Shown here in pieces: positions 2,525-36,202 of a DNA stretch of 64,000 bases. This DNA comes from Acidobacteriota bacterium (lineage in GTDB: Bacteria > Acidobacteriota > Aminicenantia > Aminicenantales > Saccharicenantaceae). The DNA is taken from contig JBDKSB010000012.1 of NCBI GenBank assembly GCA_039683095.1, forward strand, positions 776,293 to 840,292. Reading direction: 5' to 3'. Both the position numbers and the translations under genes were made by a program. The notes below the pieces were generated by a model. The model did no database searches and was not told where the DNA came from. It was given only the letters and a program-made list of their open reading frames with translations. The stretch's first letter is position 1. Each line of letters starts with the position of its first letter.

Positions 2525-3463
<939 letters not shown>

Positions 3464-8199: not shown

Positions 8200-8217
8200 G
8201 AATAGAGGGGGCAAGCC

Positions 8218-13054: not shown

Positions 13055-16000
13055 TGCACGATCTCGACCCATTGTCCCTTCGTGTTGGCATGGAGCGCGG
13101 CGTCGTACATGGCCTCGACGGCCAGGCCCGGCTGGTAATAGCGGCCGCGGAACGAAGCGTTGAGGACGACCTGGAAGACCCGCTCCTCGCCGGCGCCGAG
13201 CCCGAAGTAGGTGTAGACGCGGTCGTCGCGGACATCCTGGTAGTTGACCGCCGCGGCCGCGCCCGTCTCCCCGGCGAAGCGCGGATTCTTGATCTGGAAG
13301 CCGGCGGCCAGGAGATGGGTCAGGACGAGGTTCTCGAGCCGGCCCACGGTCAGGTTCCTGACCCGGACCTCGGCGACAAGGTCCAGCCCCTGCGCGACCT
13401 TGTCGATCGCGATCCCGTTCATCTTCATGTCGCGCATGCGGACGTCGATCGAAAGCCCTTCGGACGACGGCGTCTCGGCGCCGGCCGCGGGCACGCCGCG
13501 CCGGTAGATGGTGACGTAAAGGACCGCCGCGTCTGGATTGGTCACGGCCAGGGTCCGGCCCTGGAGCGGGAACGAAGCGAACTCGCGCCGGTCGAACGGC
13601 GTCGAGGATTCGACGTCGACGGCCTTGTCCGCGTCCCAGGCGAAGCGGAAGCGGAAGGGCTTGATCCCCTCGCTGCCGTAGAACGCGGCCAGGGCCATCA
13701 GGCCGAACGACGTCTCCTGCGTCGAGAGCCACTGGTCCGAGCCCAGCGTCCCGCCGATATCGGCGACGAGCGGCCGGGCCTGGCCGGACCGGCCCATCTG
13801 GACGAAGGCCCGGGCGGCCAGGGCCTTGTCCCGGAAGTCGGAGCCGAAGGTCAGGCTGTCGCCGCGGTAGGCCTTGAACTCGAGCTTGGCCCGGCCGGCC
13901 AGGTCCGCGGCGGCGTCCGCCTGCCCGGTGACGTGGAAGGCCGCGGCCAGCATCAGCCCGGCCAGCCCGGGCAGGCCCTCGCTCTCCCGCAGCCGGTTCA
14001 TCGCCCCGAGGTCGGGGTCGCGGGCCAGGGCCAGCACGAACAGGCGGAAAGCCTGGATCAGCCGGTCCGCGCCGCTCCCCGTGACAAAATTGTTGGCCAT
14101 CATCTTCTGGTTGGCCCGCCAGGCGTCGAGCATGGCCTGCGGCACGTGATAGCCGAGCCGGGAAGCCTCGATCAGGAAATACCCGGCGTAGGCCGTGGTC
14201 CACTCGTGGCCCTCCCGGTCGCCGGGCCAATAGGAGAACGCGCCGTTGGTCATCTGGAAGGCGGCCAGCTTCTCGACCGCCGCCCGGACGTGCTCCTCGA
14301 CGTCCCGCGCTTGCTGGGCGTCGAGCCTGACCAGGCCCTTGAGATAGAGCTGGGGAAAGGCCGCCGAGAGCGTCTGCTCCAGGCAGCCATGGGGATAGCG
14401 GATGAGATAGTCGAGCCGCTTCTCGAGAGCGAGCGGCGGCACGGACGACGCCTCGACGATGACCCGGTTCGTGCCCTCGAGGCCGAAGGGAACGACCTCC
14501 TGCCTCGCCGCCTGGCCCGGCTTGACCTCGAGCCGCGTCGTCCGGGTGACGGCCGGGTTGCCGGCCAGGATCGGGATGGCGATCGCGTCCTCGGTCCGTT
14601 CGGCGCCGCCGGCGGCCCGGAACCTCACCTCGCCCTGGCCGATGCCGCCCGCGGCCTTGAGCGCGAACGGCACGATCTCGTCGCCCGGCCTGGCGAAGAC
14701 GACGGTCCGGGTCCGCTCGCCGACGACCTCGAAAAGCGGGTTGGTCTCGACGCCGACCGTGACCTCCCTGATCGCCGGGTTGGCGACGAAGACGGTGACC
14801 GGCATGACCACGTCCTCGCCCGGCCTGACGACCCGCGGCAGCGTGGCCAGGGCCATCAGGTCGCGCCGCACCGGCACCGACTTCTCGGCCCGGCCGAAGG
14901 CGCCGTCGCGGCCGCCCACGACCATGATCCGGACGGCCCCGAAGTACTGCGGCATCGTCAGTTCGTGGACGCCCTTGCCGCCGGCCGGGAGTTCGAACGG
15001 CCCCTCGAACAGCACGACCGGCGGGAACCGCCGCGGCTGCTTGGCCTTGTCCTTGGATTCGCCGCCCTGGTCGCCGCCCAGGGCCAGGATGCGGGCCATC
15101 TCGGCCCCGTAGGCCTCGGCCACGATGTCGAAGAGGTCCCAGGTCGTGACCCCGAGGGCCTCGCGGGCGTAGAACCCCTGGCGCAGGTCGGGCGTCGCGA
15201 ACCGGGTCAGGCCGAGGAGGCCCTCGTCGACCACGGCCAGCGTGTAGCTCATGGGCCGGCCGGCCGTCTCCCTGACCTCGACCCGGAACTTCTCACGGGG
15301 CCGGATCTCGTCGGCCGCCCTGATCACGGGCTCCAGGCGCGTGGCCGGGTCCTCGACCAGGATCGGGATGACGCCGTAGAGGCGGATGGGCGTGTCGGCG
15401 ATCTTGTCGCGGTGCGGCTGGATGAGGGTGACGTGGACGTAGACATTGGGGGTCATGGCGGCCGTCAGCGGGACCTCGAAACGGTTCTCGCCCTTGACCG
15501 TCGGCACCCAGAACTTGTCGAGGACCGACGTCCCGTTCTCGATGGAGACCAGGGCCCGGCCCTGGACCGCCTCGGGCAGGTAGATGACGGCCTTCTCGCC
15601 GACCTTGTAGGAGGGCTTGTCGGCCGTGAAGCTGAGGGCCGTCGCGCCGGCGCCGCCCTCCTCGCGGGACCGGCCGGCCCAGCCCGGCCAGTCGATGTAG
15701 ACGATCTGGCCCGCGGCGTGGCCGCTCACCGGGTCCTCGGCCCGGACGAGATAGCGGCCCCAGTCGGGATAGCGGATCTGGAAGGTCCACTGGCCGGCGC
15801 CGTCCCGGGTCGCCACCTCGCCCTTGAGCAGCGGCCGGGTCTGGACGCTCGAGACGTACTGGGCCAGGGACTCGCCGCTGCGGTCCCACCACCACCGCCA
15901 ATCGAGCTTGTAGAGCGAGACCAGGATCTTGTCCCGGGACACGGGCCGTCCGGCCGTGTCGACCGTGGCGATCGACACGACCTGGTCCTTGTCGGTCAGG

Positions 16001-18573
16001 AGCATGCCCCGGGCCTGGTCGCCCTTGGGCGCCCGGACCCCGACGTAGGAGTCGTAGGGATGGAACGGCAGCGAGAACGAATCGACGCTGAAATCGCCGC
16101 TCTCCTCGAAGACCCGGCTGGTGAAGGCGGCCTCGAGCAGGCCCGGGCTCGGCTGCCGCGGCTCGATATCGATGCGGGCCTGGCCGCGGCCCTGGGCGTC
16201 GAGCGTGCCCTTGGCCGCCTCGACCGTCGCGCCTTCGAAGTCCCGGGCGGGATCGTCGAAGGCGTAGTCCGGGTAGCGGTCGAAACGGGTCGGCCGCCTG
16301 GACAGGCGGACGGAGACGTCGAACTTCAGGTTGGCGGCCGGCGCGCCGTGGAGCCATTGGGACGCGACCGAGGCCTCGAACGGCATGTCCTTGCGGACCA
16401 GGACGTCGCGCCCGGCGTCGAGCGTGATCTTGAGCCGGTTGGGCACGACGGTCTCGATCTTGAGGGTCTTGGCGAACGTCAGGCCGCCGACGAGGATGCG
16501 GGCCTGCCAGTTGCCCGTCGGGGCCGACTCGTCCGTGTCGATCCTGAAGCCGTAGAACGGCTCGACGACCTTCTCCGGCCTGGCCGTCAGGACGACCTGG
16601 CCCTGGGGGTTGGCCAGCTCCAGGAGGACGGGCTGCCCGGCCGGCAGGGCTTTCAGGCGGTCGAACAGGGCGAAGGTCAGGTGGAGCGTGTCGCCGGGCC
16701 GCCAGACCCCGCGCTCGCCGTAAAGGATGCCCTTGACCCCCTTTTTGTGGACCTCGCCGCCGACGTCGAAATGGCTGACCGGCAGGGCGCCCTGGCCGGC
16801 GATGCGGAGGTAGCCGATGTCGCCGCCGCCCTCGGCCGAGACGTAGAAGGCCCGGTCCCTGAGGGCCAGCATGGCGAACCCGCTGCCGTCGGTGGCCGTT
16901 TCGCCCAGGACCTGGTTCTGGTAGTTGTAGGCCTTGACCTTCAGCCCGGGGAGCGGCCTGGCCGTGCCGATGTCCGTGGCCACGACGTGGAGGCCGCCGC
17001 TCTCCTCGAGCTTGGCCACCAGGCCGATGTCGGAGGAGAAGAAGTTACGGCCGACGGCGGCCCTGTGATTGTAGCGCGGGATGTAGTAGGCGTCGGCGCA
17101 GGGGTCGTTGCGGCGCGACCAGTCGCCGGAATCGTAGGCGTAGCCCTCGTCGTAGTAGTCCCAGTTCGAATAGCGGCTGTAGCTCTCGTCGTCCATGTTC
17201 TGGAGCGGCGGCTCGGTCACGACCGGCGCGCCGCCCGAGGCGCAGGGATAGGTCGAGTTGCCGCGGTTGAACGACAGGACGAGGCGGAAGAGGCTGCCGG
17301 GGCTCTCCTTGAACAGGGGCGTCACGTCGAGGTCGTAGCGCGTCCACCCGCCGGTCACGGCCGGATCGTCTGAGAGCGGCACCGTCCTGCGCCAGAGATA
17401 GCGGCCGACCCGGGCCAGCTCCTCCGAGCCTTCCAGGCTGTTGACCTGGAAGAACTGGGCCATGTTGCCGGGATAGATCTGGAAGGCTGCGACCTGGACG
17501 CTCTTCAGGTTGACGGCTTCGATCGGCACGGTCAGGCGATCCTTGCGAGGCAGGATGAGGCCGCGGCCGACGAAACGGACCTGGGGTTGGAGGGACTCGA
17601 AGGTCACGGTCCGTTCCAGGCCGTCCTTCAGGCGGCGGTTGAGGAAGTTGCGGATGCCGGGCAACACCTGGACCGGCAGGCTGCCCAGGAAATTCCGGGT
17701 CGAGTAGGCCCGGACGACGTTGCCTTCGATCTCGAAGGTCAGGGGCCGGTCCTCGATCCGGATGAGGCCCTTGAGGTCCTGGTCCCTGGCCAACCTGTCG
17801 GAGAAGCGCACCAGGACGTGGCGGGCTTCGCCGGCAACGGCCTCGACGGAGACGACTTCGAAGGCCCCCTGGGCCGGGACGGCGACGTCGCGGCGGCCGC
17901 GGTTGTCGATCCGGACGGGCGCCCCGTCCCAGGACAGGGTCACAGCGGAATCTTCCTCTTTCCGGGCGATGTCCTTGACCGAGAAATAATGGTTCAGGCC
18001 CTCCTGGGAGTGGCTCCACTCGACCGTCAGGGCCTTCCCGTCCTGCTCGGCCTCGAGGACCTTCTCGACCAGGGCCTTGTCCTCCATGTCGGAGGTGACC
18101 AGGCGGCCCCGCAGGACCTGATCCTGGGGCCGCTCCGGGTCCTCGGCGAACAGCCCTTCGAGCGAGACCTCCAGGCTCGGCTTGACGACGCCGAAGCGGA
18201 ACTCGAACCGGGCGAAGGCCTTGGGCAAATCGAGGATCTTGCCGACCCGGAGGACGGCCTTGTACTCCTGGCCCGGCTTGAGCTCGCCCTTGGGGACAAA
18301 GACGAGCTCGCGCGGGTTCCTCCACTCGGCCGCGCCGTCGATGGCCGGCGAGAATTCGAACAGCCCCGGCGCGGCCGGGCCGGGCCTTCCGGCGTTGTCG
18401 ACGAAGAGGACGCGCACGGGGGACTTGCGGAAGATCGTCCCCGAGGTTAAGGCGCTGATGTAGCGGTACCACTCCTTTTCGGCTTCGGCCGCGGACGGCT
18501 TCTTCGGCTTGCAGCCGGCCAGCCCGAGGACGCAGACGGCGGCGAGAACGGCGCACACGGCTTTTTTCGTCAT
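13051..18573 (-). CDS. Alpha-2-macroglobulin lipoprotein
   Basis: 1840 residues. The start ATG at 18573 follows GGAGGGG. Residues 1-20 are a lipoprotein signal with lipobox LAGC, so the protein is anchored to a membrane facing the periplasm. It consists of consecutive macroglobulin (beta-sandwich) domains, a central region, and a C-terminal alpha/alpha thioester domain. The thioester motif PHGCLEQT is intact, with Cys near residue 1397, so it is the protease-trapping type able to link covalently to attackers. The length is slightly above the about 1650 residues of E. coli YfhM. The last four bases overlap pbpC. Transcription is from a promoter divergent from argR. Confidence 0.93.
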   Translation of the reverse strand: MTKKAVCAVLAAVCVLGLAGCKPKKPSAAEAEKEWYRYISALTSGTIFRKSPVRVLFVDNAGRPGPAAPGLFEFSPAIDGAAEWRNPRELVFVPKGELKPGQEYKAVLRVGKILDLPKAFARFEFRFGVVKPSLEVSLEGLFAEDPERPQDQVLRGRLVTSDMEDKALVEKVLEAEQDGKALTVEWSHSQEGLNHYFSVKDIARKEEDSAVTLSWDGAPVRIDNRGRRDVAVPAQGAFEVVSVEAVAGEARHVLVRFSDRLARDQDLKGLIRIEDRPLTFEIEGNVVRAYSTRNFLGSLPVQVLPGIRNFLNRRLKDGLERTVTFESLQPQVRFVGRGLILPRKDRLTVPIEAVNLKSVQVAAFQIYPGNMAQFFQVNSLEGSEELARVGRYLWRRTVPLSDDPAVTGGWTRYDLDVTPLFKESPGSLFRLVLSFNRGNSTYPCASGGAPVVTEPPLQNMDDESYSRYSNWDYYDEGYAYDSGDWSRRNDPCADAYYIPRYNHRAAVGRNFFSSDIGLVAKLEESGGLHVVATDIGTARPLPGLKVKAYNYQNQVLGETATDGSGFAMLALRDRAFYVSAEGGGDIGYLRIAGQGALPVSHFDVGGEVHKKGVKGILYGERGVWRPGDTLHLTFALFDRLKALPAGQPVLLELANPQGQVVLTARPEKVVEPFYGFRIDTDESAPTGNWQARILVGGLTFAKTLKIETVVPNRLKITLDAGRDVLVRKDMPFEASVASQWLHGAPAANLKFDVSVRLSRRPTRFDRYPDYAFDDPARDFEGATVEAAKGTLDAQGRGQARIDIEPRQPSPGLLEAAFTSRVFEESGDFSVDSFSLPFHPYDSYVGVRAPKGDQARGMLLTDKDQVVSIATVDTAGRPVSRDKILVSLYKLDWRWWWDRSGESLAQYVSSVQTRPLLKGEVATRDGAGQWTFQIRYPDWGRYLVRAEDPVSGHAAGQIVYIDWPGWAGRSREEGGAGATALSFTADKPSYKVGEKAVIYLPEAVQGRALVSIENGTSVLDKFWVPTVKGENRFEVPLTAAMTPNVYVHVTLIQPHRDKIADTPIRLYGVIPILVEDPATRLEPVIRAADEIRPREKFRVEVRETAGRPMSYTLAVVDEGLLGLTRFATPDLRQGFYAREALGVTTWDLFDIVAEAYGAEMARILALGGDQGGESKDKAKQPRRFPPVVLFEGPFELPAGGKGVHELTMPQYFGAVRIMVVGGRDGAFGRAEKSVPVRRDLMALATLPRVVRPGEDVVMPVTVFVANPAIREVTVGVETNPLFEVVGERTRTVVFARPGDEIVPFALKAAGGIGQGEVRFRAAGGAERTEDAIAIPILAGNPAVTRTTRLEVKPGQAARQEVVPFGLEGTNRVIVEASSVPPLALEKRLDYLIRYPHGCLEQTLSAAFPQLYLKGLVRLDAQQARDVEEHVRAAVEKLAAFQMTNGAFSYWPGDREGHEWTTAYAGYFLIEASRLGYHVPQAMLDAWRANQKMMANNFVTGSGADRLIQAFRLFVLALARDPDLGAMNRLRESEGLPGLAGLMLAAAFHVTGQADAAADLAGRAKLEFKAYRGDSLTFGSDFRDKALAARAFVQMGRSGQARPLVADIGGTLGSDQWLSTQETSFGLMALAAFYGSEGIKPFRFRFAWDADKAVDVESSTPFDRREFASFPLQGRTLAVTNPDAAVLYVTIYRRGVPAAGAETPSSEGLSIDVRMRDMKMNGIAIDKVAQGLDLVAEVRVRNLTVGRLENLVLTHLLAAGFQIKNPRFAGETGAAAAVNYQDVRDDRVYTYFGLGAGEERVFQVVLNASFRGRYYQPGLAVEAMYDAALHANTKGQWVEIVQ

Positions 18574-18638
18574 AAAGGCCCCTCCCCTGAGATCCGGACG
18601 ATCGCTCCTGCCCCCGACGGCGGGCACCACAGGCCGGA

Positions 18639-22056: not shown

Positions 22057-23439
22057 ATGGCCCACGCAGCCAAGACGCCGGAGGCCGAACGTATCAGCCG
22101 CCGTGATTTTCTGAAGACATCGGCCACGGCCGGGCTCGGCGCCGCCCTGGCCGGGACCGCGTTCGGACAGGCCCCGCCCCAGGCCGGGCCGGCGGCCTCG
22201 GCCGCGAAGTCCGCCGACGAGCTCCGGGTGGCCGTCATCGGCTGCGGCGCCCAGGGCCGGGTCCTCATCGAGTCGATGCTCCGCATCCCCTCGGTCCGCG
22301 TCGCGGCCATCTGTGACATCTGGTCCTACAGCCGCCAGTACACCGGGAACTATCTCAAGAAGTACGGCCATGTCGCCAAGGCCTACGAGGACTACCGCGA
22401 GCTCCTGGTTTCCGAAAGAAAGGGCCTCGACGCGGCCGTCGTGGCCACCCCCGACTGGATGCACGCCGAGCACGCCAACGCCTGCCTGCGGGCGGGCCTT
22501 CCGGTCTACTGCGAAAAGGAGATGTCGAACTCGCTCGACAAGGCCCGGTCCATGGTCCTGACCGCACGCGAGACAGGCAAGCTCCTCCAGATAGGCCACC
22601 AGCGGCGCTCCAATCCACGCTACATCCACGCCATCGACCGGCTCATCCGCGAGAAAAAGCTCCTGGGCCGGGTGACGGTGGCCTACGCCCAGTGGAACCG
22701 GGCCAAGGCCGACCTGCTGGGCTGGCCCGAGAAATACGGCATCGACCGGGCCACGCTCGACAAGTACGGCTACGGCTCGATGACCGAGTTCCGCAACTGG
22801 CGCCTGTACAAGAAGTACGGCGGCGGGCCGATGGTCGACCTGGGCTCCCACCAGATCGACCTGTTCAGCTGGGTCCACGGCGCGCCGCCCAGATCGGTCG
22901 TGGCCAGCGGCGGCCTCGACTACTACAAGAACTGGCAATGGTACGACAACGTCATGGCCATCTACGAGTACGAGACCCCGGACGGCCCGGCCCGGGCCTT
23001 CTACCAGGTCCAGACGACGACCCAGCACGGCGGCTTCTACGAGACGTTCATGGGCGAGAACGGCTCGCTCGTCCTGTCGGAGATCCCCCAGCGCGGCAAC
23101 TGGGCCATGCGCGAGCCCCACGCGCCCGAGTGGGACTCCCTGGCCAAGGCCGGTCTGCTCCAGTCGGAGGCCGTGCCCATCCAGAAGTCGACGACCAAGA
23201 ACATCTTCGTCGACGTCCGGGTGACGGCCGAGGCCGGCCGCTGGCCGCTGCCGGTCGAGCTGGCCAAACCGGCCCATCAGCCGCATCTGGAGAACTTCTT
23301 CGACGCCGTGCGCAGCGGGACGCCGCTCAACTGCCCGGCCGAGCTGGCCTACGAGTCGTGCGTCGCCGTGCTCAAGGCCAACGAGGCGGTCAAGGCCCGC
23401 CGGATCATGGAGTTCCGGCCGGAGCAGTTCAAGGCATGA
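22057..23439 (+). CDS. Tat-exported Gfo/Idh/MocA oxidoreductase coupled to a cytochrome
   Basis: 460 residues. GGAG lies eight bases before the ATG at 22057. The twin-arginine signal SRRDFLKTS (residues 14-22) precedes a hydrophobic stretch ending near AFGQA. The Rossmann loop is GCGAQG. The usual EKP motif reads EKE (VYCEKEMSN), a change at a residue that normally shapes the cofactor/substrate site. The C-terminal domain contains GGPMVDLGSHQIDLFSW with the usual Asp/His pair. Its stop overlaps the ATG of a multihaem cytochrome c gene, and a b-type membrane protein follows. That context suggests the enzyme hands electrons to the cytochrome instead of a soluble nicotinamide. The substrate is unknown, probably a sugar or sugar alcohol. 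Confidence 0.85.
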   Translation: MAHAAKTPEAERISRRDFLKTSATAGLGAALAGTAFGQAPPQAGPAASAAKSADELRVAVIGCGAQGRVLIESMLRIPSVRVAAICDIWSYSRQYTGNYLKKYGHVAKAYEDYRELLVSERKGLDAAVVATPDWMHAEHANACLRAGLPVYCEKEMSNSLDKARSMVLTARETGKLLQIGHQRRSNPRYIHAIDRLIREKKLLGRVTVAYAQWNRAKADLLGWPEKYGIDRATLDKYGYGSMTEFRNWRLYKKYGGGPMVDLGSHQIDLFSWVHGAPPRSVVASGGLDYYKNWQWYDNVMAIYEYETPDGPARAFYQVQTTTQHGGFYETFMGENGSLVLSEIPQRGNWAMREPHAPEWDSLAKAGLLQSEAVPIQKSTTKNIFVDVRVTAEAGRWPLPVELAKPAHQPHLENFFDAVRSGTPLNCPAELAYESCVAVLKANEAVKARRIMEFRPEQFKA

Positions 23440-25835
23440 GCCCCGCCGGACGGACCGCTTTCCGGGTTGCGGGCGCGGCCCTCTTCGCCGCGCTCGTCAT
23501 GGCCGCGGGCCTCGCGGCCCAAACCAATCCGCAGGGCGCGGCGCCGGCCGGGACCGGGCAGCCCGCGTCGGCCGTGCCCGCCCCGGCCCCCAAGCCCGCG
23601 GCCTGGGACGGCCACCGGACCATCACGACCCACCTGCTGCCCCTGCGCGATGAGAACGACGAGCCCATCATCCCGACCGAGGCCGAGCCCCTGCCGTACT
23701 CGGCCCGCTATACCTGCGGGCCCTGCCACGACTACAAGACCATCCAGGGCGGCTGGCACTTCGGGGCCATGACCGCCGGCCGGAGCGGCCGGCCCGGCGA
23801 GCCCTGGTTCGAGGTCGACCCCCGGACGGGGACCGTCCTGCCGCTCTCGTATCGCAAATGGACCGGGGCCTTCGACCCGCGGGCGGTCGGCCTCGGCGCC
23901 TGGGACTTCACCATGCTCTTCGGCCGCCATCTCGCCGGCGGCGGCCCGGCCGAGCCAGCCGAGGCCGAGGTCGAAGCCGAGCCGGACGGGCGCTGGAGCG
24001 TTTCGGGCAAGGCCGAGATAAACTGCCTGGCCTGTCACAACAGGTCCGGACGCCAGGACCCGAGCGAATGGGCCAAGCAGGTCCTCCGCGAGAACCTGCG
24101 CTGGGCGGCCACGGCCTCCGCCGGGATCGGCGAGGTCGGCGGCATGGCCTCCCGGCTCAAGGGCACCTGGGACATCTACGACGGGCCAAATCCCGACGAC
24201 CACGAATGGGCCGTCGTCCCGGAGGTCACGTACCGGACGGCCGATTTCGACTCCAAGCACCGCTACTTCTTCGACCTGAACTACCAGCCTTCTGACGAGC
24301 GCTGCCTGGCCTGCCATGCGGTCTCGCCGAAGGACGAGCCCATGTGGAGCGCCGAGGCCGACGTCCACGCGGCGGCCGGCTTGAAGTGCACGGACTGCCA
24401 CCGCAACGACCTCGGCCACGCCATCGTCCGCGGCTACGAGGGCGAGGCGGCCGAGACGGGCAACAAGACCGCGGCCTCCTTCACCTGCCGCGGCTGCCAC
24501 CTCGGGGAGGACGCCGGGGGCCGGAAGACGGTCGCGCCGGGGCGGCTCGGCGCGCCCTATCCGAAGCACACGGGCATCCCCCTGGTCCACTTCAAGCGCC
24601 TCTCCTGCACCGTCTGCCACTCTGGGCCGCGGCCGAAGGAGGGCTTCACCCGGGTCCGGACGTCACGGGCCAACCGGCTGGGCATCCACGGCGTCGCCGC
24701 CTGGGCGACCGATTCCCCGGCCGTCGTCGAGCCCGTCTATAAGAAGGACGCGGCCGGCAAGATCGCGCCGCAGCGGCTGGTCTGGCCGGCTTATTGGGCC
24801 CGGCGGTCCGGCCAGGGCCTGGCACCGATCAAGCCGGCCGAGGTCGAGGCCGCGGCCGGCGACATCCTCAAGGGCGAAGACCGCATCGCCCAGGTCCTCA
24901 TCGCCCTGAGCCAGGTGACGGCCGAGGACGAGACGCCCGTTCTCGCGGCGGGACGGTTCGTCTTCTCCGCGAACGTCGACGCCGGCCTGGACGCCGCCGG
25001 GCGGCCGGGAGCGAAGGCGGACACGGCGGCCTTCTGGGGCATCCGCAAGGGCGCCGAGATCGCCCCGCTCGCGCCCGATTTCGATCCGGCCGCCGCGGAC
25101 AAGGACCCGGCCGTCGAAGCCAGGTTCCAGGAGTTCCTCCAGGCCCTGGAGACCATCGCTCCGAAGCCGGGCGAGCCGGTGATCGTCGTCCGGAAGACCG
25201 TCTACCGTCTCGTCGACGGTTTCCTCGACGCGTCCGAAGCTCCGGCCGGCCTGGCCGGAGCGGCCGGTCCGGGCTGGCTCGCCGCCGGCAAGCTCCAGCC
25301 CCTGGCCTCGGATCTCGACGTCCGGACCGCGGCCGCCAAGGCGGGGACCGAACAGACGCTGACCGAAGAACAGGTAACGCTCGTCCTCGGGGCGCTGGCC
25401 AGGGCCGGCGGGAACGGCGAGTGCGTTTACGTCTCCGGCGGCCGGCTGTTCAGGCTCGACAAGGGCGGCCGGCTCGTGTCCCGAAAGGACAAGGCCGCCG
25501 CGCCCGTGACCTGGCCCCTGGCCCACAACGTCCGGCCGGCCCAGCAGTCCCTGGGCTGGAAGGCCTGCACCGATTGCCACAGCGGCGGATCGGACTTCTT
25601 CTTCGACACGATCAAGGGCACGGGGCCCCTGCTGACGAAGAGCGTGGCCAAGCGCTCGGCCGCGTCCTTCATGGGCCTCGGCGGCCTCTTCCAGCGCGTC
25701 TTCGGCCTGTCGTTCATCGTCCGGCCGGTCTTCAAGATCGTCCTGGCCGTCTGCGCCTTCCTCGTCGGGCCGCTCCTCCTGCTGGCCGGGCTGGTCGCGC
25801 TCGGCCGCTTCGCCGGGTTCATGGAGAAGAGGTAG
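23436..25835 (+). CDS. Seven-haem cytochrome c, membrane-anchored
   Basis: 799 residues. A signal peptide covers about residues 1-29, followed by a Pro/Ala-rich linker. There are seven CXXCH haem-c sites: CGPCH (about residue 94), CLACH (197), CLACH (290), CTDCH (318), CRGCH (351), CTVCH (391) and, far away, CTDCH (711). A roughly 320-residue haem-free domain separates the sixth and seventh. A hydrophobic segment near residues 755-785 should anchor it in the inner membrane, with the haems in the periplasm. It starts on the stop codon of a Tat oxidoreductase and is followed four bases later by a membrane protein. The arrangement points to an electron-transfer complex. I cannot assign it to a named multihaem family. 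Confidence 0.85.
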   Translation: MSPAGRTAFRVAGAALFAALVMAAGLAAQTNPQGAAPAGTGQPASAVPAPAPKPAAWDGHRTITTHLLPLRDENDEPIIPTEAEPLPYSARYTCGPCHDYKTIQGGWHFGAMTAGRSGRPGEPWFEVDPRTGTVLPLSYRKWTGAFDPRAVGLGAWDFTMLFGRHLAGGGPAEPAEAEVEAEPDGRWSVSGKAEINCLACHNRSGRQDPSEWAKQVLRENLRWAATASAGIGEVGGMASRLKGTWDIYDGPNPDDHEWAVVPEVTYRTADFDSKHRYFFDLNYQPSDERCLACHAVSPKDEPMWSAEADVHAAAGLKCTDCHRNDLGHAIVRGYEGEAAETGNKTAASFTCRGCHLGEDAGGRKTVAPGRLGAPYPKHTGIPLVHFKRLSCTVCHSGPRPKEGFTRVRTSRANRLGIHGVAAWATDSPAVVEPVYKKDAAGKIAPQRLVWPAYWARRSGQGLAPIKPAEVEAAAGDILKGEDRIAQVLIALSQVTAEDETPVLAAGRFVFSANVDAGLDAAGRPGAKADTAAFWGIRKGAEIAPLAPDFDPAAADKDPAVEARFQEFLQALETIAPKPGEPVIVVRKTVYRLVDGFLDASEAPAGLAGAAGPGWLAAGKLQPLASDLDVRTAAAKAGTEQTLTEEQVTLVLGALARAGGNGECVYVSGGRLFRLDKGGRLVSRKDKAAAPVTWPLAHNVRPAQQSLGWKACTDCHSGGSDFFFDTIKGTGPLLTKSVAKRSAASFMGLGGLFQRVFGLSFIVRPVFKIVLAVCAFLVGPLLLLAGLVALGRFAGFMEKR

Positions 25836-25839
25836 GGCC

Positions 25840-26517
25840 ATGGTCTTCACGATCGTCACCGTCCTCGTTCTCGCGGCGGCGTTCCTCGGGCTCGCCTTCC
25901 ACCGCTTCCTGACGACCCGCGAGGAGGCCCGGTCGACCATCCTTTACGGCGAGCTGATCAAGAAGTTCTTCGCCTGGCTGGCCCTCCGGACGGTCCAGAT
26001 GTCCCGGCGGGCTTCGCCCCGGGCCTGGCGGGCCTGCCTGAAGGGGCTCCCCCTCTGGCGGGAGCCGGTCCTGGAGAAGTGGCTCGACATCTGTTTCTGC
26101 GGGAGCTTCCTCTACCTGGCGGCCAGCGGGTTCTTCTTCGGCGTCTTCATCCCGCGCGGCCTGTTCGGCTTCCCGCTCGTCGGGCACGTCATGTGCGGCG
26201 GCCTGTTCTCCGTCTGCCTGGCCGTCATCGTCCTGTTCAAGGGCCGTGACTTCGTCGCCGTGCCGAAGCCGGCCAGCCTGACCTTGTCCATCCTCGACCT
26301 CCGGAAGATGGGCGTCACGCCGGCCCGGGTCAGGGTCTGGGCTTTCTGGCTCTTCGTCGCGGCCGGGTTCCTGCTCATGATATCCGCCCTGCTGCCCATG
26401 CTGCCCCTGTTCGGCACGCCGGGACAGAGGTTCCTCTTCGAGTTCCACCGCTACGCGGCGCTGGCATCGGCCGCGGCGGCCGTCGTCTTCGCCGGCCTCG
26501 AGATCTTCAAGGATTGA
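25840..26517 (+). CDS. Integral membrane protein, cytochrome b-like
   Basis: 225 residues with about four or five membrane helices: residues 2-22, around 87-110, 117-137, 168-190 and 200-220. His residues inside or at the edge of helices (LAFHRF, VGHVMCGG, FEFHRYAAL) could bind haem b, as in small cytochrome b561/NarI-like quinol-oxidising subunits. It directly follows the seven-haem cytochrome c gene. The likely role is to exchange electrons between quinone and that cytochrome. The family assignment is by topology and context only. Confidence 0.6.
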   Translation: MVFTIVTVLVLAAAFLGLAFHRFLTTREEARSTILYGELIKKFFAWLALRTVQMSRRASPRAWRACLKGLPLWREPVLEKWLDICFCGSFLYLAASGFFFGVFIPRGLFGFPLVGHVMCGGLFSVCLAVIVLFKGRDFVAVPKPASLTLSILDLRKMGVTPARVRVWAFWLFVAAGFLLMISALLPMLPLFGTPGQRFLFEFHRYAALASAAAAVVFAGLEIFKD

Positions 26518-26552
26518 GGCCGGGCGGGCCGGTCCTGCGCCCCTCCGTCCCC

Positions 26553-26581
26553 TTGCTATTTCCATTTGGATGGACTATCAT
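26553..26581 (+). promoter_or_regulatory. Promoter of glutamate dehydrogenase gene
   Basis: TTGCTA (26553-26558), 17-bp spacer and TATCAT (26576-26581, five of six). The predicted leader is about 65 nt and includes a small GGCACC/GGTGCC hairpin before the AGGAG ribosome site at 26641. Confidence 0.55.
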
Positions 26582-26652
26582 TTTTTGTCGCGGGGACCGC
26601 GACGATGAGGCACCGCAAGGTGCCGCCATCACCACACTTTAGGAGCTTATCA

Positions 26653-27939
<1,287 letters not shown>

Positions 27940-27967
27940 TCTCTTCCGTTCGTCGCGACGTCGCCGT

Positions 27968-28008
27968 CCCGTCCTCCCCGGTCCGGCCGGGGAGGACGGG
28001 GCGTTATT
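27968..28008 (+). terminator. Terminator of glutamate dehydrogenase gene
   Basis: A perfect 14-bp stem, CCCGTCCTCCCCGG at 27968-27981 and its complement at 27987-28000, with a 5-nt loop, followed by GCGTTATT. It lies 28 bp after the stop codon. Confidence 0.8.
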
Positions 28009-28079
28009 GACGGACCGGACCCGGGCCGGAACAGGACCGGGCCGGCGGCCTCTCGATCAGAAAGGAGGGACGCCGCGAC

Positions 28080-31000
28080 ATGACCAATCCGCGCACGCCG
28101 ACGGCCGTCGAGACCCTGTTCTCCACGCTCCACGAGCGGGCCAAGGAGCTGAGCTGCCTCTACCGCATCGAGGAGATCCTCAGCATCTACGACGTCCCCC
28201 TGGAAGAGGTCTTCCGCCAGATCATCGAGGCCGTCCCGCCGGGCTGGCAGTACCCCGACTGCTGCCAGGCCCAGATCACCTACGGGACGGACGTCTTCGA
28301 AACCCCCGAATACGAGGAAACGCCCTACGTGCATTGCGCGGACATCCGCGTCCAGGACGCCTCGGTCGGCCGCCTCTGCGTCTCCTACAGGAAGCCGACG
28401 CCGGAGAGCGATTGCGGCCCGTTCATGAAGGGCGAGGTCAAGCTCATCCACCAGGTCGCCGAGCGCCTCGGCCAGTTCATTCTCCACCAGCGCCTGCGGG
28501 GCATGTACGAGCAGATCAGCAGCGACCGCCGCGACGGCGCCGGCGGCACGCGGGGCTGGCGGATCGCCCTGGACCTCCTCCGCAACACCAACCCGACCCT
28601 TCTCCTGCGGGTCTCCCGCAAGATGATGAACTACCTCGGCTGGCGCGGCGTCGGCGAGGCCCGCGACCTGCTGCAGCGGTTCGGCGGCGCGGCCGTGGCC
28701 GACGGCCTGTACGGGGAATCGAACCAGCCCCAGACCCGGGAGTCCCTGGACCGCTTCTTCGCCCTGACCGAGGAGACCTTCCGCTGCGCCTCGGCCAACC
28801 TGACCGACGAGGAGATCCTGGACCGCATCCAGCGGTGGATCAACGAGGACCGCTCGAGCTCGGCCGTCCAGAACCTCGAGAACGTCTACGCCGGCCTGCC
28901 GGAGGTCCTCGACAGCATGCGCCGGATCAGGATCCTGGCGCCCGAGGGCATCCAGCTGCCGCGCTCGACGGCCAACAGCGTCCGGGTCGCCCTCATCCGC
29001 CGCTTCTTCACCGAGCAGCTCGAGTTCATCAACGTCGCCAAGAAGTACGTCGACATCGAGGACTTCTTCGACCTGAGCGAGAAGATCGTCTTCCCGCCCG
29101 GCAGCCACGGCAAGCTGGGCGGCAAGAGCGCCGGGCTGTTCGTCGCCAGCCGGATCCTGGCCCAGGCGGCCCGCCGGACCAAGGCCATCGGCACGGTCAA
29201 GAAGCCCCGGACCTGGTACATCACCTCCGACGCCCTGATCGCCTTCACGTCCTACAACAACCTCGACGACGTCCACGAGCAGAAATACAAGGATATCGAG
29301 ATCGTCCGCCAGGAGTATCCCCACCTCGTCCAGGTCTTCAAGAACTCGACCTTCCCGCCCGAGATCGTCAAGGGCCTGTCGGTGGCCCTGGACGACTTCG
29401 GCGACGTCCCGCTCATCGTCCGCAGCTCGAGCCTCCTCGAGGACCGGCTGGGCACGGCCTTCGCCGGGAAGTACAAGTCCCTGTTCCTGGCCAACCAGGG
29501 CGACAAGCAGCAGCGCCTCGGGGCCCTGCTCGACGCCGTGGCCGAGGTCTACGCCTCGATCTTCAGCCCCGACCCGATACAGTACCGGGCCGAGCGCGGC
29601 CTCCTCGACTTCTACGAGGAGATGGGCGTCATGATCCAGGAGGTCGTCGGGACCCGCGTCGGGAAGTATTTCTTCCCCGCCTACGCCGGCGTCGCCTTCA
29701 GCCGGAACGAGTTCCGCTGGTCGCCGCGCATCCGCCGCGAGGACGGCCTGCTCCGGCTCGTGCCGGGGCTGGGGACGCGGGCCGTCGACCGCGTCAGCGA
29801 CGACTATCCCGTCCTCGTCTCGCCCGGCCAGCCGAACCTGCGGGTCAACGTCTCGACCGACGAGGTCGTCCGCTACTCGCCCAAGAGGATCGACGTCATC
29901 GACCTCGAGGAGAACGCCTTCGTGACCAGGGATATCCGGGAGGTCCTGCGCGAGGCCGGCCGCGATTTCCCGGCCCTGACCAAGGTCTTCTCCATCTACC
30001 GGGACGGCCTGCTCCAGCGGCCCATGGGCCTGGCCACGGACTGGGCCTCGTCCGACGCCGTGGCCACCTTCGACGGCCTGGTCGCCGCGTCGCCCTTCAT
30101 GGCCCAGCTCGAGGCCATCCTCAAGACCCTGTCGACGGCCATGGGCGTTCCGGTCGACATCGAGTTCGCCTCGACGGGCACTGACTTCTACCTCCTCCAG
30201 TGCCGGCCGCAGAGCCAGGCCGCCGAGGACGTGGCCATGGAGATCCCGGCCAACCTGCCGGACGAAGCCGTCCTGTTCACGGCCCGCAAGCACGTCCCCA
30301 ACGGCCGCGTCGCCGACATCACCCACATCGTCTACGTCGATCCGGACCGCTACGGCGGCCTGGCCGATTTCGCCGATCTGGCGGCCGTCGGGCAGGCCGT
30401 GGGCAAGCTCAACAAGCTCCTGCCGCGGCGGCAGTTCATCCTCATGGGGCCCGGGCGCTGGGGCAGCCGTGGCGACATCAAGCTCGGCGTCCGGGTCACC
30501 TACTCCGAGATCAACAACTCGGCCATGCTCATCGAGGTGGCGCGCAAGAAGGGCAACTACGTCCCCGACGTCTCGTTCGGGACGCACTTCTTCCAGGACC
30601 TCGTCGAGTCGGGCATCCGCTACCTGCCGCTCTATCCCGACGACGAGGGGATCAAGTTCAACGAGAGGTTCCTGCTCACGTCGCCCAACCGGCTGGCCGA
30701 CCTTTGCCCGGAGTGCGCCGGGCTCGCCGACGCGCTCCGGGTCATCGACGTCCCCCAGGCCGCCGGCGGCAAGGTTCTCCGCGTGGTCATGAACGCCGAC
30801 GAGGAAGCGGCGGTCGGCTACTTCGCTCCGCCCGAGGCCGCGGTGCGGACGGCCGGCGGCGCCGCCCGGGCCGGGCTGGGCGAGGACGAGGGCCAGTCCC
30901 TCTGGCGGATGCGCATAGCCGAACGGATCGCCTGCCGCTGCGGCGGCCCGAAATGGGGCATCCGGGGCGTCTATTACGTGGACCCGGGCGACGGCGGCCA

Positions 31001-31265
31001 GGCCGATCCAGCCTCGCCCATGAGGCTCGTCATCCACTTCACGGGCGGCGCCCGCCAGCGCAAGGAGCTCGAGACCTGGCTCCAGGGCTGGAGCATGTCG
31101 CTGGCCGAGGTGAACTACTTCCGGACCGGGTTCCATTCCGACGGCCTGCTGGACGTCCTCTTCCTGACGGACGAGAAGATCCAGGGAGAGAAGGACGTCG
31201 CGGCCCGCCTCAAGGTCGCTTCGAACGCCGTTCGCGGGCTCCCGCTCGGGCCCAAGGCCGTTTAA
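28080..31265 (+). CDS. PEP/pyruvate-binding (PPDK_N) domain protein with GAF-like N-terminus
   Basis: 1061 residues, cytosolic. Residues about 10-145 look like a GAF-type sensor fold (LYRIEEILSIYDVPLEE, VGRLCVSYRKPT). Residues about 340-716 match the ATP-grasp-like PEP/pyruvate-binding domain of pyruvate phosphate dikinase and PEP synthase: GKLGGKSAGLFVA, PLIVRSSSLLEDR, and DIEFASTGTDFYLLQCRPQ. The phosphohistidine swivel domain and the PEP barrel are absent, so this is not a complete dikinase. The remaining 340 residues form a separate conserved-looking module (GPGRWGSRGDIKLGV, SFGTHFFQDLVESG). An AAAGGAGGG site precedes the ATG. A regulator or phosphotransferase using ATP is plausible; the reaction is unknown. 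Confidence 0.75.
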   Translation: MTNPRTPTAVETLFSTLHERAKELSCLYRIEEILSIYDVPLEEVFRQIIEAVPPGWQYPDCCQAQITYGTDVFETPEYEETPYVHCADIRVQDASVGRLCVSYRKPTPESDCGPFMKGEVKLIHQVAERLGQFILHQRLRGMYEQISSDRRDGAGGTRGWRIALDLLRNTNPTLLLRVSRKMMNYLGWRGVGEARDLLQRFGGAAVADGLYGESNQPQTRESLDRFFALTEETFRCASANLTDEEILDRIQRWINEDRSSSAVQNLENVYAGLPEVLDSMRRIRILAPEGIQLPRSTANSVRVALIRRFFTEQLEFINVAKKYVDIEDFFDLSEKIVFPPGSHGKLGGKSAGLFVASRILAQAARRTKAIGTVKKPRTWYITSDALIAFTSYNNLDDVHEQKYKDIEIVRQEYPHLVQVFKNSTFPPEIVKGLSVALDDFGDVPLIVRSSSLLEDRLGTAFAGKYKSLFLANQGDKQQRLGALLDAVAEVYASIFSPDPIQYRAERGLLDFYEEMGVMIQEVVGTRVGKYFFPAYAGVAFSRNEFRWSPRIRREDGLLRLVPGLGTRAVDRVSDDYPVLVSPGQPNLRVNVSTDEVVRYSPKRIDVIDLEENAFVTRDIREVLREAGRDFPALTKVFSIYRDGLLQRPMGLATDWASSDAVATFDGLVAASPFMAQLEAILKTLSTAMGVPVDIEFASTGTDFYLLQCRPQSQAAEDVAMEIPANLPDEAVLFTARKHVPNGRVADITHIVYVDPDRYGGLADFADLAAVGQAVGKLNKLLPRRQFILMGPGRWGSRGDIKLGVRVTYSEINNSAMLIEVARKKGNYVPDVSFGTHFFQDLVESGIRYLPLYPDDEGIKFNERFLLTSPNRLADLCPECAGLADALRVIDVPQAAGGKVLRVVMNADEEAAVGYFAPPEAAVRTAGGAARAGLGEDEGQSLWRMRIAERIACRCGGPKWGIRGVYYVDPGDGGQADPASPMRLVIHFTGGARQRKELETWLQGWSMSLAEVNYFRTGFHSDGLLDVLFLTDEKIQGEKDVAARLKVASNAVRGLPLGPKAV

Positions 31266-31300
31266 TCCGGGGACACCGCTCCCGGCCGGCCCTTTTCCGT

Positions 31301-31329
31301 TTGATTTGGGCCGGAGAATCGGGGATACT
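31301..31329 (+). promoter_or_regulatory. Promoter of apbE-like gene (leaderless)
   Basis: TTGATT (31301-31306), 17-bp spacer and GATACT (31324-31329). Six bases separate the -10 from the ATG at 31336, so transcription should start at or next to the start codon. No ribosome site precedes the ATG. Confidence 0.55.
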
Positions 31330-31335
31330 CGACAT

Positions 31336-32295
31336 ATGCCGCCGAGCCGCGATCCGGCCGTTCATCGCTTCGCCCACGAGGCCATGTCGACGACGTTCGA
31401 GGTGTTCATCGCGGGCAAGGGCCGGACCTATGCCGGGCAGGCGGCCCGGGCGGCCTTCGACGAGATCGACCGGATCGAGTTGCTTTTCAGCCGCTTCGAC
31501 CCCTCGAGCGAGATCAGCCGGATCGGCCGGCTCGGGCCCGGCCGGTCCCTTCGCATCGGCCTCGAGACGGCCGAGGTCCTCGGGCTCGCTGCCTTCGTCC
31601 AGAGGGAAACGGGCGGCGCCTTCGACATCGATCACCTCGGCGCGGCCCGCCGGGCCGGGGGCCGGGCCAGGCGAGGGCCGCTGCCGCTCGCGGCGCTCCT
31701 CCGGATCGATACGGACGGCCGCGGGTTCGAGGTGACGCGGCTTCGGCCGAAGGGACGGGCGTCCGCCCCGGCCCTCGACCTCGACCTGGGGGCGGTGGGC
31801 AAGGGCTACGCCCTGGACGCGGCCCTGGCCGTTCTCCGGACCTGGGACGTGGGCAACGTCCTCCTCCATGCCGGGACGAGCACGGCCCTGGCCGACGGCC
31901 CCGGCCCGGCCTCGGCCGGGCGCGGCGGGGGCTGGCCCGTCGGCGCCGGCGGGGCGGCGGGGAGCGCCTCCGGACCCGGCCGCGTCCTCCTGCGCCGGCG
32001 CTCGCTCAGCGGGTCGGGCACCGAGGTCAAGGGCGCTCATATCGTCGATCCGCGCAGCGGCCGCCCGGCCGGGGGGGCCGTCGCAGCCTGGGCCTCACAC
32101 CCCTCGGCCGCCGTCTCCGACGCCCTGTCGACGGCCTTCATGGTCATGTCGCCGGCCGAGGTGGCCGCCTTCTGCCGCCGGCACCGGGCCGTCTGGGCCC
32201 TCGTGAAAACCGGCCCCGAAACGTGTAGAATATTCAATGCGGGCACGATGTCCGAAGCGCGGCCCGCGCGAAATTCAAGGAGACGTTCAAGATGA
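31336..32295 (+). CDS. apbE: FAD:protein FMN transferase (ApbE family)
   Basis: 319 residues. ApbE attaches FMN from FAD covalently to Thr/Ser in target flavoproteins, with Mg. Family motifs are present in order: MSTTFEV near the N-terminus, DLDLGAVGKGYALD (central signature), LLHAGTSTALADG, GAHIVDPRSGRP and the metal/FAD site region VSDALSTAFMVMSP. It has no signal peptide or lipobox, while most ApbE proteins are exported, so it should act in the cytosol unless the start is wrong. No obvious flavinylated target (RnfG/NqrC/FMN-bind) lies in the window. The stop codon overlaps the start of the next gene. The leader appears to be absent. Confidence 0.88.
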   Translation: MPPSRDPAVHRFAHEAMSTTFEVFIAGKGRTYAGQAARAAFDEIDRIELLFSRFDPSSEISRIGRLGPGRSLRIGLETAEVLGLAAFVQRETGGAFDIDHLGAARRAGGRARRGPLPLAALLRIDTDGRGFEVTRLRPKGRASAPALDLDLGAVGKGYALDAALAVLRTWDVGNVLLHAGTSTALADGPGPASAGRGGGWPVGAGGAAGSASGPGRVLLRRRSLSGSGTEVKGAHIVDPRSGRPAGGAVAAWASHPSAAVSDALSTAFMVMSPAEVAAFCRRHRAVWALVKTGPETCRIFNAGTMSEARPARNSRRRSR

Positions 32296-32969
32296 AGAAG
32301 CTCATGTGTGGAATAGCGATCCTCGGCCTCGGCCTGGCCGTGCTGGCGCCCGCCGCCGCGGCCCAGGAGCCGGGCAAGGAGGTCCTGAAGATCCAGCTGC
32401 CAAAGCCGATGTTCATCGGCACGCCCAAGAACATCCGCACTCCCAACCTCGAGGCCGTCACCGGCCGGCCCCGCGGGCCGTTCATGGTCCCGGTCGGCAC
32501 GGTCCTCCTCTCGGCCGGCAAGCCGGTCACGGCCAGCGACAAGGAGCCGGTCATCGGCGAAATATCCTACGTCACCGACGGCAAGAAGTCCGGCGAGGAC
32601 GGCTATTACGTCGAGCTCGGCCCGATGACCCAGTGGGTCCAGGTCGATCTCGGCAAGCCGCAGGAGCTCGCCGCCATCGTCTGCTGGCACTACCACAGCC
32701 AGGCCCGCGTCTACCGGGACGTCATCGTCCAGGTCTCGAATGACAAGGACTTCATCAGCGGCGTGACCACGGTCTTCAACAACGACCATGACAACAGCTC
32801 CGGCCTCGGCGCTGGCAAGGACAAGGAGTATATCGAGACCTTCGACGGCAAGCTCTTCGATCCCAAGGGCGTCAAGGCCCGCTACGTCCGTCTCTACAGC
32901 GCCGGCAACACGTCCAACGACATGAACCACTACGTGGAGGTCGAGGTCTACGGTCTGCCGGCCAAATGA
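32292..32969 (+). CDS. Secreted discoidin-like (F5/8 type C) protein
   Basis: 225 residues. A Sec signal peptide covers residues 1-24 (core AILGLGLAVLAPAAAAQ). The mature part has the features of a carbohydrate-binding jelly-roll of the F5/8 type C class: QWVQVDLGKPQELAAIVCW in the middle and the ending ARYVRLYSAGN...VEVEVYG. Such domains bind sugars or surfaces. It is translated from an ATG overlapping the apbE stop, with AAGGAG upstream, and its own stop overlaps the next start. A role in surface glycan binding is inferred from fold only. Confidence 0.7.
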   Translation: MKKLMCGIAILGLGLAVLAPAAAAQEPGKEVLKIQLPKPMFIGTPKNIRTPNLEAVTGRPRGPFMVPVGTVLLSAGKPVTASDKEPVIGEISYVTDGKKSGEDGYYVELGPMTQWVQVDLGKPQELAAIVCWHYHSQARVYRDVIVQVSNDKDFISGVTTVFNNDHDNSSGLGAGKDKEYIETFDGKLFDPKGVKARYVRLYSAGNTSNDMNHYVEVEVYGLPAK

Positions 32970-34540
32970 CCAAGAGGGCCTTTCGCGGGCTGTTCCTCTG
33001 CGCCGTCCTCGGCGCCCTGGCCTTCCGTCTGGTCCGCCTCGACGTCCGGCCGATGCACCCCGACGAGGCCAACCAGGCGGTCAAGTTCGGCCGGCTCCTC
33101 GAGCGCGGCGAATACCGCTTCGACCCCGGCGACCATCACGGCCCGACGCTCTATTACCTGACCCTGCCCTCGGCCTGGGCGGCCGGAGACAGGACCCTGG
33201 CCGCCCTGGACGAGCGGGTCCTGCGGCTCGTCCCGGCCCTGGCCGGGGCGGCGCTCCTCCTCGTCATCCTCCTCTTCGCCGGCGGGCTCGGCCGCGGCGC
33301 GATCCTGGCCGCGGCGGCGCTGGCCGCGGTCTCTCCCGCCTTGACCTATTACAGCCGCTTCTACATCCAGGAGACGCTGCTCGTCCTCTTCCTCGCGGCG
33401 CTCGTCGGCTGCGGCTGGCGGTACGCCCGCAAGCGCTCCCCCGCCTGGGCGTTCCTGGCCGGCGTTTCGGCCGGGATGATGGCGGCGACAAAGGAAACGA
33501 GCCTCATTCTCTTCGGCGGCCTGGCTGCGGCCTTCCTCCTGCTGTCGATCTTCGAGAGCGTCCGGACGCGCCGCCGCCCGGTCCTGACGGCCGGCGACGC
33601 TTGGGTCTGGCGCGACACCAGGACCAAGCTCCCGAGCGCCGGGCATGCCCTGCTGTTCCTGGCGGCCGGCGCGGCCGTCGCCGTGCTTTTCTATTCCTCG
33701 TTCTTCAGCAACATCCCCGGATTGGCCGACGCCGTCCGGGCCGTCGGCATGTCGTTCGCCCGGGCCGGCCGGCCCGGCGTCCACGCCCATCCCTGGCCTT
33801 ACTATTTCCAGACGCTGGCTTACTCGAAGGCGGCCGGCGGCCCGCTCTGGAGCGAGGCCTTCCTTCTCGCCCTCGCCCTGGCCGGCGGGATCGCGGCCCT
33901 GCGCCGTGACGCCGGCCGGAACGGCAGCGGGCGTTTCCTCCGCTTCATCCTCTTCTTCACGGCCGTCACGGCCGCCGCGTACAGTCTCATCCCCTACAAG
34001 ACCCCCTGGAACATGCTCCCCTTCTATCTTGGCCTGGTCATCCTGGCCGGCGACGGCGCGGCCGCGCTCGTCCGGATCGGCCGCTCCAGATTCGTCCGGA
34101 TCCTCGTCCCGGCGATCCTGGTCCTCGGTTTCGCCGGCCTGGCGGCCCAGGGCTACCGGGCGAATTTCGTCTCCCCCGCCGACCCGGCCAATCCCTACGC
34201 TTACGCCCAGACGAGCCCCGACTTCCTGAAGCTGGTCGCGGCGGTCGAGCGGGCCGCCGCCGCGGCGCCGGAGAAGAGAGAGATCCTGGTCGAGGTCGTC
34301 GCCCCTCCCGAAGAGACCTGGCCGCTGCCCTGGTACCTGCGGCGATTCGGGAAGGTCGGCTACTGGACGAGCCCCGAAGCGGCCGCGAAGGACGTGCCGG
34401 CCGGCCGGGCTCCCGTCGTCATCTCGTCCGCCGCGTTCGCCGGCGACATGGCCGCCGCTCTCGGCGACGGCTACGCGCAATCATTCTACGGCCTCCGGCC
34501 GGAGGTCGTCCTGTCCCTCTTCGTCCGCCGCGGCCCCTGA
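32966..34540 (+). CDS. Membrane glycosyltransferase, Agl23/TIGR03663-like
   Basis: 524 residues, integral inner-membrane protein with about ten to twelve helices of the GT-C type. After the first helix comes MHPDEANQ, the acidic motif in the first periplasmic loop of lipid-linked-sugar glycosyltransferases, followed by HHGPTLYYLT. The family TIGR03663 (flippase-associated Agl23) has this layout; members probably transfer a sugar from a polyprenyl-phosphate donor on the outer face of the membrane. The C-terminal about 150 residues are soluble. It overlaps the preceding gene by four bases and ends 13 bp from the convergent ThuA gene. The exact donor and acceptor are unknown. Confidence 0.75.
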   Translation: MTKRAFRGLFLCAVLGALAFRLVRLDVRPMHPDEANQAVKFGRLLERGEYRFDPGDHHGPTLYYLTLPSAWAAGDRTLAALDERVLRLVPALAGAALLLVILLFAGGLGRGAILAAAALAAVSPALTYYSRFYIQETLLVLFLAALVGCGWRYARKRSPAWAFLAGVSAGMMAATKETSLILFGGLAAAFLLLSIFESVRTRRRPVLTAGDAWVWRDTRTKLPSAGHALLFLAAGAAVAVLFYSSFFSNIPGLADAVRAVGMSFARAGRPGVHAHPWPYYFQTLAYSKAAGGPLWSEAFLLALALAGGIAALRRDAGRNGSGRFLRFILFFTAVTAAAYSLIPYKTPWNMLPFYLGLVILAGDGAAALVRIGRSRFVRILVPAILVLGFAGLAAQGYRANFVSPADPANPYAYAQTSPDFLKLVAAVERAAAAAPEKREILVEVVAPPEETWPLPWYLRRFGKVGYWTSPEAAAKDVPAGRAPVVISSAAFAGDMAAALGDGYAQSFYGLRPEVVLSLFVRRGP

Positions 34541-34553
34541 GCCGCCGCGCCGG

Positions 34554-35345: not shown

Positions 35346-35356
35346 GGCCTGTCCTT

Positions 35357-36133: not shown

Positions 36134-36149
36134 CTCGGCCTCCTTGGAT

Positions 36150-36184: not shown

Positions 36185-36202
36185 CCAACACGGCAACTCG
36201 AT

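Follow-up and report, generated by a model that had tools for sequence, protein, structure and literature searches.

A conserved gene set of Aminicenantes and other Acidobacteriota probably pairs an exported, NAD-using sugar dehydrogenase with cytochrome partners

The locus and its gene products

The stretch of DNA analysed here (the window, 64,000 nucleotides) belongs to a 3.3-Mb assembly that is 95% complete; the closest relatives with a name are MAGs that carry the label Acidobacteria or Candidatus Aminicenantes. A preliminary description had picked out in it three genes, for a Tat-exported oxidoreductase, a seven-haem cytochrome c and a b-type membrane protein; their coordinates proved exact, with genes 1 and 2 sharing an ATGA overlap (23436-23439) and genes 2 and 3 separated by a 4-bp gap (25836-25839). 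The wider cluster spans 22057-37603 and includes an ApbE, an F5/8-type protein, an Agl23-like PMT, a ThuA protein and a second Gfo that the description had missed. Its features are:

22057-23439, + strand: gene 1 (460 aa), Gfo/Idh/MocA oxidoreductase of the Tat type, scoring above the Pfam cut-offs of GFO_IDH_MocA and TAT_signal
22099-22104, + strand: Tat-signal twin arginine R15-R16 (in SRRDFLK), kept in orthologues
23436-25835, + strand: gene 2 (799 aa), seven-haem c-type cytochrome with a predicted helix at each end, a signal at the N-terminus and a membrane helix at the C-terminus
23715-23729, + strand: haem motif 1, CGPCH, absent from the remote orthologues L076, L078 and L079
24024-24038, + strand: haem motif 2, CLACH
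24303-24317, + strand: haem motif 3, CLACH
24387-24401, + strand: haem motif 4, CTDCH
24486-24500, + strand: haem motif 5, CRGCH
24606-24620, + strand: haem motif 6, CTVCH
25566-25580, + strand: haem motif 7, CTDCH
25840-26517, + strand: gene 3 (225 aa), cytochrome b-like membrane protein with five predicted helices
26185-26187, + strand: H116 of gene 3, invariant candidate haem b ligand (orthologue comparison)
26446-26448, + strand: H203 of gene 3, invariant candidate haem b ligand (orthologue comparison)
31336-32295, + strand: ApbE-like FAD:protein FMN transferase without signal peptide (PF02424, 116 bits), the sole ApbE copy in the genome
32292-32969, + strand: secreted F5/8 type C (galactose-binding-like) protein (Pfam; signal-like N-terminus), overlapping the ApbE gene by ATGA and 58-90% conserved
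32966-34540, + strand: PMT-type glycosyltransferase (TIGR03663, Agl23-like; 197 bits, cut-off 126), overlapping the F5/8 gene
34554-35603, - strand: ThuA-domain protein with its true start inside the ORF (PF06283, 168 bits, ORF residues 119-328), near the cluster in several loci
36203-37603, - strand: second Gfo/Idh/MocA protein, BT_2158-like glycoside 3-dehydrogenase (547 bits of the cut-off of 750)

By its sequence gene 1 is a member of the Gfo/Idh/MocA family in which both the Rossmann domain and the C-terminal alpha/beta domain are recognizable, with scores of 64 bits against PF01408 (cut-off 24), 48 bits against PF22725 (cut-off 27) and 43 bits against PF02894 (cut-off 22.9), and its profile hits include GFOR and GH109 structures. 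The Tat motif of the preliminary description was borne out by a TAT_signal (PF10518) score of 25 bits (cut-off 22.7), and with TatC encoded in the same genome gene 1 has both the twin-arginine signal and the translocase expected of a Tat substrate, and is predicted to be exported. Comparison of orthologues showed that: 1) the glycine-rich GxGxxG motif, here GCGAQG, as well as D87, K154 and the catalytic motif DxGxHxxD, here DLGSHQID, are conserved, D87 lying after beta-2, where it suggests NAD as the cofactor. 2) The proline of the EKP motif is a glutamate (EKE) in the gene 1 subfamily and a methionine in the copy at locus L091. 3) EKE in place of EKP, together with a GHQRRS(N/H)PRY block, sets gene 1 apart from the other Gfo proteins in the comparison. 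A stripe of four tyrosines in gene 1 (Y91, Y95, Y99 and Y103) was not used, since it is invariant within the order but not across remote homologues. The genome has 14 Gfo/Idh/MocA matches in all.

The seven CXXCH motifs of gene 2 lie far beyond the expectation from 20,000 shuffles of its own composition (mean 0.008, maximum 1), its score against Cytochrome_C7 is 40.4 bits (cut-off 24.8), and its predicted structure has helices at residues 3-29 and 750-792. With several CXXCH motifs and an export signal it is, on these features, a multihaem c-type cytochrome, in agreement with the earlier assignment. We found no CXXCK haem in gene 2 or its orthologues. The protein is weakly and locally similar to NrfA and octahaem tetrathionate reductase (OTR); it is not an OTR, given 23.6 bits against the OTR model TIGR04315 (cut-off 375) and seven motifs against eight haems. 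Its AlphaFold model has a pLDDT of 59.8, which falls below 50 over most of the haem part, and the PDB fold matches of this model, sliding clamps at a TM of about 0.1, were discarded as meaningless. Residues of about 430-700 form a haem-free insertion between haems 6 and 7 with pLDDT near 90; this insertion resembles approximately three alpha/beta repeats, is shorter in remote orthologues and returned no meaningful fold match. Five loci (L081-L085) carry distant relatives of gene 2 without a Gfo gene and possibly represent another multihaem/cytochrome b module; one of these relatives (L082:5236-7995) has its own C-terminal membrane domain, with an ArsR-like regulator nearby.

The model of gene 3 (pLDDT 84) contains five long helices, and its best folds are formate dehydrogenase-N gamma (FdnI, 1kqf_C) and the cytochrome b of hydrogenase-1 (HyaC, 4gd3_A), with a probability of 1.00 but an E of only 0.016-0.09 and a TM of about 0.5. 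Against PF01292, the FdnI/HyaC type, it reaches 10.2 of the 30.1 bits needed. H116 and H203 are invariant in 30 orthologues and are retained in the remote and fused versions. Because of this fold and these histidines the b-type label that had been given to gene 3 is well supported, though not proven; as only two histidines are invariant, the protein would probably bind one haem b. Predicted helices and the positive-inside rule would place H116 and H203 near the outer membrane face, beside the periplasmic cytochrome.

In most other genera of the order genes 1-3 are followed by the ApbE-like gene, the F5/8 type C gene and the PMT-type glycosyltransferase gene, and ThuA lies near in several. In the source genus this block is split, a glutamate dehydrogenase and a PPDK_N-domain gene (26566-31265) standing between gene 3 and ApbE; ApbE is 5-6 kb off in two congeners (L039, L043), and close behind gene 3 in most other genera. 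Here the ApbE, F5/8 and PMT genes occupy 31336-34540, each overlapping the next by ATGA, and ThuA and the second Gfo occupy 34554-37603. The model that the PMT passes is named 'flippase activity-associated protein Agl23'. Orthologues of the second Gfo adjoin ApbE in L076, L078, L079, L089 and L092, and the BT_2158-type relatives score 547 bits in the window, 513 in L078 and 486 in L089, against a cut-off of 750. The mapping of the cluster across loci covered selected families.

Conservation of the trio and exchange of the membrane partner

Among 60 related genomes, the source genome included, gene 2 is present in 43, and the exact gene 1 subfamily (profile E below 1e-100) adjoins it on the same contig in 42 of these, as opposed to 2 of the 17 gene-2-negative genomes, in both of which it lies near a contig end (Fisher p about 4e-11, with shared ancestry ignored). 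The three genes stay joined while their flanks (argininosuccinate lyase and glutamate dehydrogenase) mostly change, and several further families of the order likewise show the -4 overlap and a short second gap. The spread of the module was examined within Acidobacteriota: a strong gene 2 match occurs in six remote genomes among 396 of the phylum, which keep the pair of genes 1 and 2 at 40-50% identity, gene 1 lying directly upstream of gene 2 in all six (gene 1 at 49-53% identity). In two of them (L078, L079) gene 2 continues at its C-terminus into a fused gene 3, and in two others (L075, L080) the sequence ends before the position of gene 3. One contig scan found close relatives solely in records labelled Aminicenantes, Saccharicenans or Acidobacteria; searches of plasmid records and of PHROGs gave no match. 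The preliminary description had named a lack of conservation in related genomes as grounds for rejecting its reading; the trio is indeed conserved in relatives, which supports its being a real functional unit. Aminicenantes and other Acidobacteriota share a conserved set of genes in which an exported sugar dehydrogenase, probably one that uses NAD, stands beside a seven-haem cytochrome and a candidate haem-binding membrane protein.

Eight gene 1 copies in the phylum have no gene 2 alongside, and in seven of these a DoxX/DoxD-type membrane protein adjoins gene 1 (L089, L090 and L092-L096, e.g. L089:7334-9274), identified six times by a Pfam hit, one of them below cut-off, and once by 74% tblastn identity. 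The eighth (L091) is adjoined by a small unclassified membrane protein. In the gene 1 tree the DoxX clade is nested within the cytochrome-linked sequences with support of 0.95-1.0; on this tree the enzyme stayed constant and the membrane partner beside it changed a single time. Such a swap is not accounted for by chance adjacency and favours the partner as an electron acceptor, although not all DoxX proteins are known to be redox-active. The fusion of genes 2 and 3 and the replacement of both by DoxX support a membrane redox partner for the oxidoreductase.

The ApbE-like protein and the question of a flavin

With its domain, FAD site and catalytic Ser/His/Asp retained (residues as in PMC12052999), the protein of the cluster is, to judge from these residues, a member of the ApbE family. 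Where complete, its lineage scores about 100-140 bits against PF02424, compared with 215-243 for a separate canonical lineage in some relatives, and those relatives mostly lack the module. Taking PF02424 matches under 150 bits as module-type, we find such an ApbE in 40 of the 43 gene-2-positive genomes versus 1 of the 17 negatives. In orthologues whose start can be resolved, the protein begins just a few residues ahead of the domain, and no signal peptide is seen; the 2021 ApbE survey dropped genes without signal peptide, and orphan apbE still occurred in 4% of its genomes. The genome contains none of the FMN_bind, DUF2271 and DUF3570 proteins, the substrate families of ApbE named in PMC8238504, and the flavinylation motif D-x-x-[ST]-G-A-[ST] has no conserved site in genes 1-3. 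A candidate site in gene 2, DCHSGGS/DCHSGAS behind haem 7, was rejected as a general site: remote orthologues have CHATEAP or CHDANAP there, and NrfA has a similar CHSxxS. Either this ApbE has an unusual target site, or the protein has another role.

Modification of a Tat substrate would have to take place in the cytoplasm, which is where this ApbE appears to reside. It might put FMN on a non-canonical site of folded gene 1 before Tat export, making an NAD-FMN wire that passes single electrons to the seven-haem cytochrome or, elsewhere, to DoxX, and on to quinone. We regard this as a long shot; if true, the enzyme would represent a novel class among respiratory dehydrogenases, and ApbE would have a substrate of a new kind.

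A candidate route from sugar to quinone, and its alternatives

We tentatively propose, giving it close to an even chance, that the three genes encode the core of a quinone-linked dehydrogenase outside the cytoplasm, whose bound NAD is reoxidised via haem c and haem b. Gene 1 would fold in the cytoplasm with a nicotinamide cofactor tightly bound and then be exported by Tat; in the periplasm it would oxidise a hydroxyl of a sugar or glycan, probably within a 3-keto-sugar pathway, since ThuA and the BT_2158-like glycoside 3-dehydrogenase share the cluster. The reduced cofactor would then pass electrons to the membrane-anchored seven-haem cytochrome (gene 2), from there to the haem b protein (gene 3) and finally to the quinone pool, and speculatively a flavin step, perhaps installed by the ApbE of the cluster, may turn the hydride into single electrons. 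At textbook potentials, electrons passing from NADH to menaquinone go downhill by about 250 mV. Since NADH donates hydride whereas haems accept electrons one at a time, one expects a flavin as intermediary; chemically, a direct transfer from NADH to haem is unfavourable, and ApbE, the only hint of a flavin in the route, apparently has neither a signal peptide nor a conserved motif to act upon in genes 1-3. These points count against the proposed route, as does the absence of the MqnA/MqnD family in a search of the genome for that family of quinone synthesis. The preliminary description had further held that an exported Gfo/Idh/MocA enzyme needs a cytochrome to reoxidise its cofactor. This does not hold, as the window encodes two more without one (4853-6196, with a Tat signal, and 36203-37603, the BT_2158-family relative) and the established enzymes Zymomonas GFOR and GH109 also manage without; what distinguishes the trio is its strict co-inheritance and partner swap, not its family membership.

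The same two proteins lend some weight to gene 1 being redox-neutral with bound NAD, an enzyme of the hydrolase, lyase or epimerase type comparable to GH109 and GFOR, structures of both of which are among its profile hits; its partners would then just rescue the NADH-stranded enzyme, with little flux to quinone. We consider this unlikely, as a strictly co-inherited chain of seven haems c and a haem b would be a large outlay for rescue, and related enzymes do without it. A similarly small chance attaches to a role in the modification of cell-surface or lipid-linked glycan: the Agl23-like glycosyltransferase could mean glycan building rather than catabolism, and together with the F5/8 protein it might build or bind a glycan whose sugar gene 1 oxidises, with electrons going to quinone or DoxX for an anabolic purpose. 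The overlapping ApbE, F5/8 and PMT genes that come after the trio in most genera, and the passing of the Agl23 model, speak for such a role, whereas ThuA and the BT_2158-like enzyme point to sugar catabolism and no other glycan-synthesis gene recurs in the loci mapped for selected families.

The likeness of gene 2 to NrfA and OTR, weak and local as it is, and the distant cytochromes without gene 1 (L081-L085), one of them fused to a membrane domain of its own, would fit a unit of genes 2 and 3 that is an independent quinol-fed reductase for a nitrogen or sulphur compound and with which gene 1 is merely co-transcribed. This is improbable: gene 2 proper hardly ever occurs in the absence of gene 1, the DoxX swap leaves gene 1 with a membrane partner, and no CXXCK haem was seen in gene 2 or its orthologues. 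Nothing in the sequence fixes the direction of flow, and quinol could in principle reduce NAD on gene 1 via haems b and c, with gene 1 then reducing a keto sugar; such a reversal is very improbable, being uphill from menaquinol to NAD by about 250 mV at textbook potentials, with no energy-coupling subunit seen in the cluster.

The proposed quinone-linked dehydrogenase resembles several known systems in part. Zymomonas GFOR and GH109 either regenerate their bound NAD(P) with a second substrate or catalyse redox-neutral reactions; gene 1 has their fold family and Tat signal in common, but unlike gene 1 they have no cytochrome partner. The glucoside 3-dehydrogenase of Agrobacterium is a GMC-type flavoprotein with a cytochrome c. 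What it would share with the trio is the cytochrome-linked oxidation of sugar outside the cytoplasm, yet gene 1 has the NAD-binding Gfo/Idh/MocA domains only, and the trio is not one of these enzymes. FdnI and HyaC, the nearest folds of gene 3, are small membrane cytochromes b that link periplasmic oxidation to quinone, from which gene 3 differs by scoring below the Pfam cut-off and having just its two invariant histidines. The Bacteroides thetaiotaomicron BT2158 family (NCBIfam NF058561) comprises periplasmic glycoside 3-dehydrogenases (PMC11300592), likewise extracytoplasmic Gfo/Idh/MocA enzymes, with a close relative at 36203-37603 in the same cluster. Gene 1 is not a member, scoring 82.6 bits against a cut-off of 750, and is further distinguished by its GHQRRS(N/H)PRY and EKE signature and its cytochrome or DoxX partner. 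ApbE-dependent extracytosolic flavoprotein systems (PMC8238504, PMC11334425) likewise group ApbE in one cluster with an extracytosolic redox protein and an electron-transfer module in the membrane; in contrast to them, the present genome has no known ApbE substrate family, genes 1-3 lack the motif and the ApbE lacks a signal peptide.

Our literature search found no paper pairing Gfo/MocA with multihaem cytochromes, the slash in the family name limiting that search, and nothing on cofactor retention by GFOR; the sole other hit was a paper on DsbA substrates. This respiratory way of oxidising sugar outside the cytoplasm may not have been described before. A module that ties an exported Gfo/Idh/MocA enzyme to haem c and haem b, with DoxX as the alternative, offers a testable answer to the recycling of NAD, and if the proposed route is right, these uncultured lineages would pass electrons from sugar straight into the quinone pool and not only via cytoplasmic NADH. 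The module also gives a context for ApbE genes that have neither a signal peptide nor a known substrate.

Two further features were observed elsewhere in the window. A second sugar-type cluster (2393-9396) encodes a xylose-isomerase-like TIM barrel, three Gfo/Idh/MocA proteins, one of them with a Tat signal, and a HEAT-repeat protein, and a large bacterial alpha-2-macroglobulin-like protein is encoded on the - strand at 13051-18630.
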